Below, piece by piece: positions 12,003 to 46,164 of a stretch of DNA of 64,000 nucleotides. The notes under the pieces are model-generated. The model was not told the DNA's origin. It searched no databases and was given only the letters and a program-made list of their open reading frames with translations. Position 1 is the stretch's first letter, and each line of letters begins with the position of its first letter. Origin of the DNA: Verrucomicrobiia bacterium (lineage in GTDB: Bacteria > Verrucomicrobiota > Verrucomicrobiia > Limisphaerales > JAEYXS01); contig DASWYF010000048.1 in the NCBI GenBank assembly GCA_036405135.1, positions 1-64,000 on the forward strand, read 5' to 3'. Both the position numbers and the translations under genes were made by a program.

Positions 12003-12022
12003 GTGGATACAAAACGGTAACC

Positions 12023-12409
12023 GGAGCGCGGTTCCGCATGCAGGACCGCCTAAATATCTCTCAGCACGGCCTAGAGGCGGTCATGAACTTTGAGTGGCAT
12101 AAAACAAAGCTGGTTGGCCCAAAGGGCCAAAAGATTCCAGCCCAAGGCAGATCGTTCGCGGTCTGCCTTGGGTTGAAGCGCGCAGAGGAGAGCGGCCTGA
12201 AAGGCCGCCAGAGGGTCTGGTGTCCTTACAGGACACACTGGTTTTAACGCGACAATCCAGGGCAAGGGCCGCTTAGGTGCGGCCCTTGCCCTGGGCTGGA
12301 ATCTCTTGGCCCTTTGGGCCACAGCATTAACGCATGGTTGGTTTCTCTTCATTCATTACTTGTTAACAAAGTTCAAGAGAGACTCTAGGCGGCTTAAAAG
12401 CCACGCTCC
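12023..12409. repeat. Composite palindromic repeat (family A shell, family B core)
   Basis: The 520-base gap between the SDR gene and the helicase is mostly structured repeat. The outer shell starts GGAGCGCGG at 12023 and ends CCACGCTCC at 12409, the same inverted ends as the elements at 32009 and 33759. Nested inside are 29-base arms at 12116-12144 and 12292-12320 that are inverted complements with one mismatch. Between them are four perfect hairpins, among them GCGGCCTGAAAGGCCGC, GTGTCCTTACAGGACAC and a stem of GGGCAAGGGCCGC type. I see no gene in it. Confidence 0.75.
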
Positions 12410-31885: not shown

Positions 31886-32008
31886 AATATCGCTCTGACT
31901 TAACTGACGAGGCGAGGACACCGTATCATAGCGGGCAAGTAGAGGGAAACTAGGAAAAGGAAGAGCGGCTTGACGCGAATTGCGCGAATGGGGCGAAACC
32001 GGAGCAAG

Positions 32009-32114
32009 GGAGCGCGGGTTTTAACCCGCCTAAACGTGCGACAACTCCAACGCGTTGAAATAAACCTACATCGTTTGATGTGCGAATATTTAGGCGGCAT
32101 GAATGCCGCGCTCC
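32009..32114. repeat. Family A palindromic repeat, copy 2
   Basis: The element begins GGAGCGCGG and ends CCGCGCTCC. Inside are the hairpins GCGGGTTTTAACCCGC (32014) and GCGGCATGAATGCCGC (32094) and a core ACTCCAACGCGTTGAAAT. It occupies the gap between the small membrane protein gene and the YkgJ gene. The remainder of that gap (31886-32292) shows no gene. Confidence 0.7.
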
Positions 32115-32292
32115 TAGTTTGCGTAGCGAACACCAGTGAGTAGACGTGGGTTTCAACCCGCAGCCCCGCGCCTCAGAAATAATTTCGTCACGCATCAACG
32201 GTTGATTTAATAAGGTCGAAAAAGTCCAATAGGACTAAGATGGACAAACCGATTTAATTCAAGCATACCATACTACCGCTTAGGAATGAGAA

Positions 32293-33746: not shown

Positions 33747-33758
33747 CACGAAGCGAAA

Positions 33759-33869
33759 GGAGCGCGGTCCCGCATGCGGGACCGCTTCAAGGTACGAAAA
33801 CTCGAACGCGTTAAAATCGGCAACGCCTTCTGATTCGCGAATGTTGATGCGGCATAAATGCCGCGCTCC
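33759..33869. repeat. Family A palindromic repeat, copy 3
   Basis: It has the same inverted ends as the element at 32009 (GGAGCGCGG and CCGCGCTCC), a hairpin GCGGTCCCGCATGCGGGACC-type stem at 33764-33785, the core ACTCGAACGCGTTAAAAT, and a final GCGGCATAAATGCCGC hairpin. The rest of the gap to 34064 has no visible gene. Confidence 0.7.
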
Positions 33870-34064
33870 TGTTTGGCGACGCAACCCGCTTTGGGGTTGG
33901 GGAAAAAATCAAAACGCGGTGACCCAACGTAGCTCCGCGAGAGTGTCGCAACGTTGGGCTTGGGGACGGAACGCCGTTGGCATTCTTCAGCTCATGATCT
34001 TGGTGAGATGATTTTGTTTGAAAGCGAGGAGTAGGCGATTTCTACTTTTGTCACAAGGGATTGT

Positions 34065-45833: not shown

Positions 45834-45843
45834 GTTTTCTATG

Positions 45844-46016
45844 GCCCGGAGGGCCAAAAGATTCTTAGCAGCGGCTTTTAAGCCGCTGTGCAGCACGAGT
45901 AAAACACGGTCACGTAGTGACCGAAGATGGGTTGTCTCTTGCGTCGCTAACGCGACGCTTACTCATTAATGATAGAGTCGGCGGCTTGAAAAGCCGCCGC
46001 TAAGAATCTTTCGTGC
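45844..46016. repeat. Family B multi-hairpin palindromic element, copy 2
   Basis: It begins GGCCCGGAGGGCCAAAAGAT, like the left arm at 12116. The outer arms include AAGATTCTTAGC (45858-45869) and its exact complement at 45999-46010. Between them are hairpins: CAGCGGCTTTTAAGCCGCTG (45869), CGGTCACGTAGTGACCG (45907), GCGTCGCTAACGCGACGC (45941), and GGCGGCTTGAAAAGCCGCC (45980). It fills the 390-base gap after lemA, with no gene. Confidence 0.7.
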
Positions 46017-46164
46017 CTAGAGGCGCGGAATGCTTTGAGATCAAATACTTTGAAGACTTCCACTCCACACTCAGTCTGAATCTCAGACGCTGGTAAAGCG
46101 TTGGGGAACTTCTTCCCCGTTTTCCGCTTGCCTGCCGGCGTTGTTTTGAAAGTAAATCCACACC

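Follow-up and report, generated by a model that had tools for sequence, protein, structure and literature searches.

The palindromic elements A and B are, with a probability of about 0.85, non-autonomous copies of Y1 (HUH) single-strand transposons that lack tnpA, a reading drawn from the close similarity of their ends to those of the tnpA units on contigs C33 and C20 of the same genome. Both lie in the window, i.e. the whole analysed stretch of 64,000 nucleotides, with which contig C48 of a draft genome of 5.8 Mb (G000) begins. The complete unit is a gene for a TnpA of 148-150 aa between two three-hairpin ends in inverted order; the copies in the window consist of two ends only, about 190-210 bp in all, with the gene missing. 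The elements belong to a real, structured and dispersed mobile-element family, a REPIN/REPtron variant on subclass 1.2 transposases, which is REPIN-like in its working and represents a new variant within the REP/REPIN-transposase kind rather than a new kind. An earlier sequence-only reading could name no repeat class for them; this view is not supported, the elements being REPIN/REPtron-like.

Anatomy of elements A and B

Re-reading of the sequence reproduced exactly the 29-base arms of element A, which are inverted complements with one mismatch (12116-12144 and 12292-12320). The four inner hairpins described earlier are all present, but the total is six, as the ends of the arms also fold into hairpins (Table 1). 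The second element of the same plan, formerly put near 45844-46016, was placed at 45842-46027 and likewise has six hairpins. The general plan is hp0 - GAnnn(n)[T/C]AG - hp1 - ~18 nt - hp2, followed by its mirror image. For B, the left half runs hp0 - AAAGATTC(N)TAGC - hp1 - ~18 nt - hp2 - AAGA, and the right half, after 1-22 nt, runs TCTT - hp3 - ~18 nt - hp4 - mirrored foot - hp0'. The foot sequence is A/T/C/GTAG in B, CCAG in A and GTAG in several relatives. Hairpins hp1 and hp4 stand in inverted order with TAG facing outward and are dispersed between genes, which is the layout of a REPIN.

Table 1. Features of elements A and B, in window coordinates
Feature	Position	Strand	Remarks
Element A, tnpA-less six-hairpin, subfamily A	12114..12321	.	
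A outer left hairpin hp0 (TTGGCCCAAAGGGCCAA)	12114..12130	.	left arm 36/38 identical to C33 transposon left end
A motif GATTCCAG, 5' foot of hp1	12133..12140	+	counterpart of GAnnnTAG
A hairpin hp1	12141..12172	.	
A hairpin hp2 + CAGA	12192..12212	+	hairpin 12192-12208; 21/22 identical to C33 transposon end
A hairpin hp3 with mirrored TCTG	12216..12236	-	hairpin 12220-12236
A hairpin hp4	12257..12294	.	
A mirrored foot motif CTGGAATC	12296..12303	-	right arm 33/35 identical to C33 transposon
A outer right hairpin hp0'	12307..12321	.	
Element B, tnpA-less six-hairpin, subfamily B	45842..46027	.	
B outer left hairpin hp0	45842..45856	.	
B foot motif GATTCTTAG	45860..45868	+	
B hairpin hp1	45869..45888	.	
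B hairpin hp2 + AAGA	45907..45927	+	
B hairpin hp3 with mirrored TCTT	45937..45958	-	
B hairpin hp4	45979..45999	.	
B mirrored foot motif CTAAGAATC	46000..46008	-	right arm 44/50 identical to C20 transposon
B outer right hairpin hp0'	46012..46027	.	sequence unlike left hp0

The predicted RNA folds of both elements are highly stable (z = -12.6 for A and -7.2 for B), and 0 of 200 shuffles were equally stable in either case. When hairpin density was followed in 210-nt steps across the window, the A and B loci appeared as maxima with 4-5 hairpins; the 3000 sequences of a Markov null never had more than two comparable hairpins per 210 nt. Strong folding, and nothing else, speaks for palindromes arisen by chance or for RNA genes of an unrelated family. 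The shuffles and the Markov null argue against such an origin, as do the genome-wide family, its covariation and the same ends around a transposase gene; the number of copies and the transposon ends in common refute the explanation, which has a negligible probability. An Rfam covariance search of the window returned two tRNAs only and no family match for the elements, and a known structured RNA family was therefore rejected.

The window also carries a second palindromic repeat (33757-33870, 31989-32133 and 12022-12049), with ends GGAGCGCGG...CCGCGCTCC and inner hairpins, of which a half-copy lies directly upstream of element A. A genome-wide search for the left-end hairpin of this repeat gave 4 matches at up to 3 mismatches, and the control gave 0.

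Genome-wide family, covariation and retention

That only two copies exist, the outcome which would have spoken against the element, is contradicted by searches of the genome: the left-end motif common to A and B has 41 matches against 9 for the reversed-pattern control, the inner hairpin of B has 15 against 0, and that of A has 11 against 0. A covariance model built from 14 B copies gave 80 matches, which collapse to about 45 distinct places by hand count because the element is nearly symmetric, and 17 score above 110 bits; these family counts are lower bounds, only part of the candidates having been scored. The earlier description of a real palindromic repeat element is borne out. The family falls into subfamilies A and B, and element A itself reaches 67.6 bits with the B model, which indicates a common structure beyond the arm.

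Among the 14 B copies, 96% of the cells are paired and 13 pairs have changed on both sides, a result reached by 0 of 500 shuffles, and slid-register controls gave 30-46% pairing. The outer hairpins are exchanged as whole units of the GGCCC, GTGCC, CTCGC and TTCGC types; those on the left and right are often unlike in sequence, yet both fold, suggesting that hairpin shape is kept and not repeat identity. The linkers of about 18 nt are nearly constant in length and free in sequence, and pairing of left with right linkers is no better within an element than between elements (permutation p = 0.58), which rules out an interior formed by one long stem. The inner hairpins are not the variable array that they had been taken for, as they are conserved within each subfamily and the truly variable parts are the linkers. 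Their description as unrelated in sequence holds between subfamilies and species, but within a subfamily they are conserved and covary position by position. The copies are not near-identical and their linkers are completely different; amplification is therefore mostly old.

Empty sites were sought with joined flanks as queries against the congeners G001 and G002. Neither congener has an element at the site of the C16 copy, and in G002 the C20:238292 site is empty as well, an insertion polymorphism between relatives; other element sites are shared. The empty sites could in principle be losses and not insertions. At both of them, the intergenic flanks have diverged too far for a target-site duplication or an exact junction to be resolved. 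At the site of the C20 B-type tnpA transposon, G001 retains a partial right end only (L177, against L047 in G000), which suggests decay or loss; this orthologous site thus gave no clean example of a short copy derived from a tnpA copy.

At three shared sites, the stems are identical at 232 of 236 positions (98%), the changes being two compensatory pairs only, and linkers plus loops are identical at 151 of 256 (59%), which indicates that stems are kept and spacers drift. Among 23 copies, the genes on either side are convergent for about 10, co-directional for about 10 and divergent for at most 1, these counts being approximate as the ORFs were taken mechanically. Conserved stems, this gene arrangement and the very stable RNA folds all accord with elements that now have a cellular function, either as structured 3' ends or as RNA (two-way terminators, protection of mRNA ends), their transposon origin being mere history. 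Such a role is compatible with a transposon origin and differs on what keeps the copies; it may be considered possible, though not likely, since the hairpins are followed by no U-tract of the kind seen in intrinsic terminators (by eye), no Rfam family matches, copies are absent at orthologous sites in the congeners, the linkers do not pair, and ordinary REPs have been reported with the same position bias (PMC3733652). Stem conservation favours a host role, but continued TnpA recognition, or conversion, would look alike and could also keep the stems; the strength with which these are conserved where sites are shared prompts one to ask what holds such repeats in place.

Transposases of the same genome and known systems

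The suggestion that a RAYT-type transposase should be looked for proved worthwhile, as Y1 transposases with the same ends are present among the 8 Y1_Tnp matches in the genome. A 150-aa Y1 gene on C33 is bracketed by A-type hairpin ends, and the Y1 gene on C20 by B-type ends. Besides the end identities listed in Table 1, A matches the C33 transposon at 27/35 positions at hp3 and B matches the C20 transposon at 30/33. The hp2 of B (CGGTCAC...) was not found at the ends of the C20 transposon, which makes the partner of B less exact than that of A. Both elements thus carry the ends of a tnpA-bearing copy and lack the gene, as is the case for non-autonomous copies. Several further Y1 genes of the genome are flanked by hairpin ends that have sequences of their own.

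Dispersed, non-coding copies with long imperfect terminal inverted repeats would also be expected of a MITE derived from a DDE-type insertion sequence. However, the ends match those of Y1 transposons and a Y1 gene sits between such ends, the outer hairpins of the two sides both fold despite sequences that are often unlike, and no target duplication was seen at the two empty sites, all of which renders a DDE origin very improbable.

The transposases score 94-97 bits with the Pfam Y1_Tnp model (cut-off 23) and 66-81 bits with the NCBIfam IS200/IS605 model (cut-off 55), but at most 26 bits with the RAYT model (cut-off 80), and they have the motif Y---Q and not the class 2 motif Y---NP. Residues D54, H55, H57, W95, Q96, Y115, Q119 and H122 are invariant in 12 proteins, and H123 is nearly so. 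The motifs Y---Q--HH, WQ and D-H-u-H and the length of about 148-150 aa place these enzymes, by motif, in subclass 1.2; the nearest solved structures are those of the IS608 TnpA group. A rival reading takes the elements for REP doublets of the ordinary type (REPINs/BIMEs), mobilised by a class 2 RAYT; in its favour are the inverted doublets, the outward TAG foot, the intergenic position and the cognate Y1 genes, which follow the logic described for such systems (PMC3733652, PMC3116915, PMC8266576). This alternative is nevertheless improbable, as evident from the failed RAYT model, the passed IS200 model, the presence of three hairpins per end instead of one, and a foot in A and B of CAG/ATAG/TTAG rather than strict GTAG. 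Since the cognate transposases do not pass for class 2, the elements are not classed as RAYT-REPIN.

The Y1 transposases on C35 (L049) and C2 (L051) of the genome are closely similar to each other and have a different end type with longer interrupted hairpins and a GTAG foot. On C13 (139478-139756, L053), a long frame that resembles the PriA helicase contains, in frame, a Y1-type domain, which has the Y---NP-like motif YIQDNP and is bracketed by near-identical repeats of about 35 aa, as if a REP transposase had been inserted in frame.

Like A and B, REPINs/BIMEs with their RAYT are non-autonomous, intergenic inverted hairpin doublets with a 5' tetranucleotide foot (PMC3116915, PMC6006769, PMC8266576), and the C33 and C20 units resemble a REPtron, in which the cognate Y1 gene is flanked by the same hairpins. 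In the present family, by contrast, each end has three hairpins and not one REP, the outermost of the three lies beyond the TAG foot, and the transposase is IS200-like and of subclass 1.2 in place of class 2. TIRtrons/TIRYT also comprise Y1 genes with terminal inverted repeats, some double-palindromic, and dispersed TIR families, but are mostly of subclass 2.1 and have a TIR consensus, GGGGWSAS, that differs from the present motif (De Nocera et al. 2013, PMC3733652). TnpA-Y1 class 3, which reaches a high copy number in some genomes (about 600 in Solibacter) and occurs in Planctomycetes and Acidobacteria, similarly has several atypical hairpins per flank, but its motif is Y----Q and its reported foot CnGA, against Y---Q and [N]TAG here (PMC6006769). 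The IS200/IS605 elements (IS608, ISDra2) share the transposase family and subterminal hairpins with guide sequences; they have one subterminal hairpin per end, whereas here there are three and the ends mirror each other. To our knowledge, classical IS200/IS605 elements carry no long inverted repeats, and A and B depart from the classical form of one hairpin per end without terminal inverted repeats. A search of the open-licence literature on multi-hairpin Verrucomicrobia repeats or subclass 1.2 substrates yielded nothing beyond PMC3116915, PMC6006769, PMC8266576 and PMC3733652.

TnpA-REP and IS200/IS605 enzymes bind single-stranded DNA hairpins and cut them with the help of the 5'-foot tetranucleotide (PMC8266576). 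By analogy, when the DNA becomes single-stranded, e.g. on the lagging-strand template, TnpA would bind hp1/hp4 through the hairpin and its [N]TAG foot, the positional counterpart of the REP GTAG foot and of the IS200/IS605 guide tetranucleotide. It would then cut near the foot and move or copy the element in trans, with the C33 transposase probably acting on A and the C20 transposase on B, and the family may still be mobile; hp0 and hp2 may act as extra contacts or spacing devices. After settling, mostly between convergent or co-directional genes, many copies would have been kept, with stems conserved far better than linkers, and retained copies may have acquired a cellular role.

Related loci in other genomes and phyla

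When 40 genomes were searched with the B model, its own genome being counted, 17 showed the plan, built from different sequences. A scan of named genomes by transposase alignment gave 80 loci in Verrucomicrobiota, Planctomycetota, Acidobacteriota, Bacteroidota, Chloroflexota and others. The flanks were usable for 79 loci, and at 60 of these their inverted similarity exceeded that of all controls, reached by none of 395 shuffles and none of 189 distant flanks. With phyla taken from record titles, these positives make up 48 of 56 loci outside Bacteroidota and 12 of 23 within. Of 188 long hairpins, 61 have TAG at the 5' foot, usually in the context GAnnnTAG, as compared to 11 with the mirrored motif at the 3' foot.

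Subclass 1.2 was set apart in 2018 as having no IS properties; it was defined by Y---Q--HH, found mostly in Cyanobacteria and Bacteroidetes, generally without the typical terminal IS200 structures, and given 'no' in the REP column (Quentin et al. 2018, PMC6006769). The TnpAs described here agree with it in Y---Q--HH, the WQ motif, the length of about 148-150 aa and low copy number, and the scarcer Bacteroidota positives fit that description. They depart from it in that most loci outside Bacteroidota bear hairpin-bearing inverted ends and that gene-less copies exist. For subclass 1.2, the present elements provide candidate substrates, directly testable in vitro, which have a defined anatomy and a common foot motif and occur in Verrucomicrobiota, Planctomycetota, Acidobacteriota and others. 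They also tie IS200-type enzymes to a TAG foot like that of REPs, a link of relevance to the origin of REP systems. We tentatively suggest, as a conjecture that may well fail, that subclass 1.2 forms a REPtron lineage of its own that spans phyla and is marked by triple-hairpin ends and a GAnnnTAG code, the gene-less copies of which are host-adopted as conserved structures between genes, with all six stems under selection and drifting spacers.

The flanks of L211, from a Verrucomicrobiota MAG, match the flanks found in the congener G001, which assigns the genus of the window to Verrucomicrobiota. In Planctomycetes bacterium Pan216, the genome of which is complete, units of the hp1 type occur as inverted doublets 120 bp apart and in direct arrays, some of the doublets lying near a related transposase. 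The Pan216 loci L277 and L294 have direct arrays of triple-hairpin units with 95-bp and 154-bp spacing near a related transposase, and inverted doublets recur there about 635-815 bp apart. In a Thermoanaerobaculia MAG (L247) and a Planctomycetota MAG (L253), tandem hairpin units occupy the flanks adjoining the transposase, where the ends seem to multiply as blocks.
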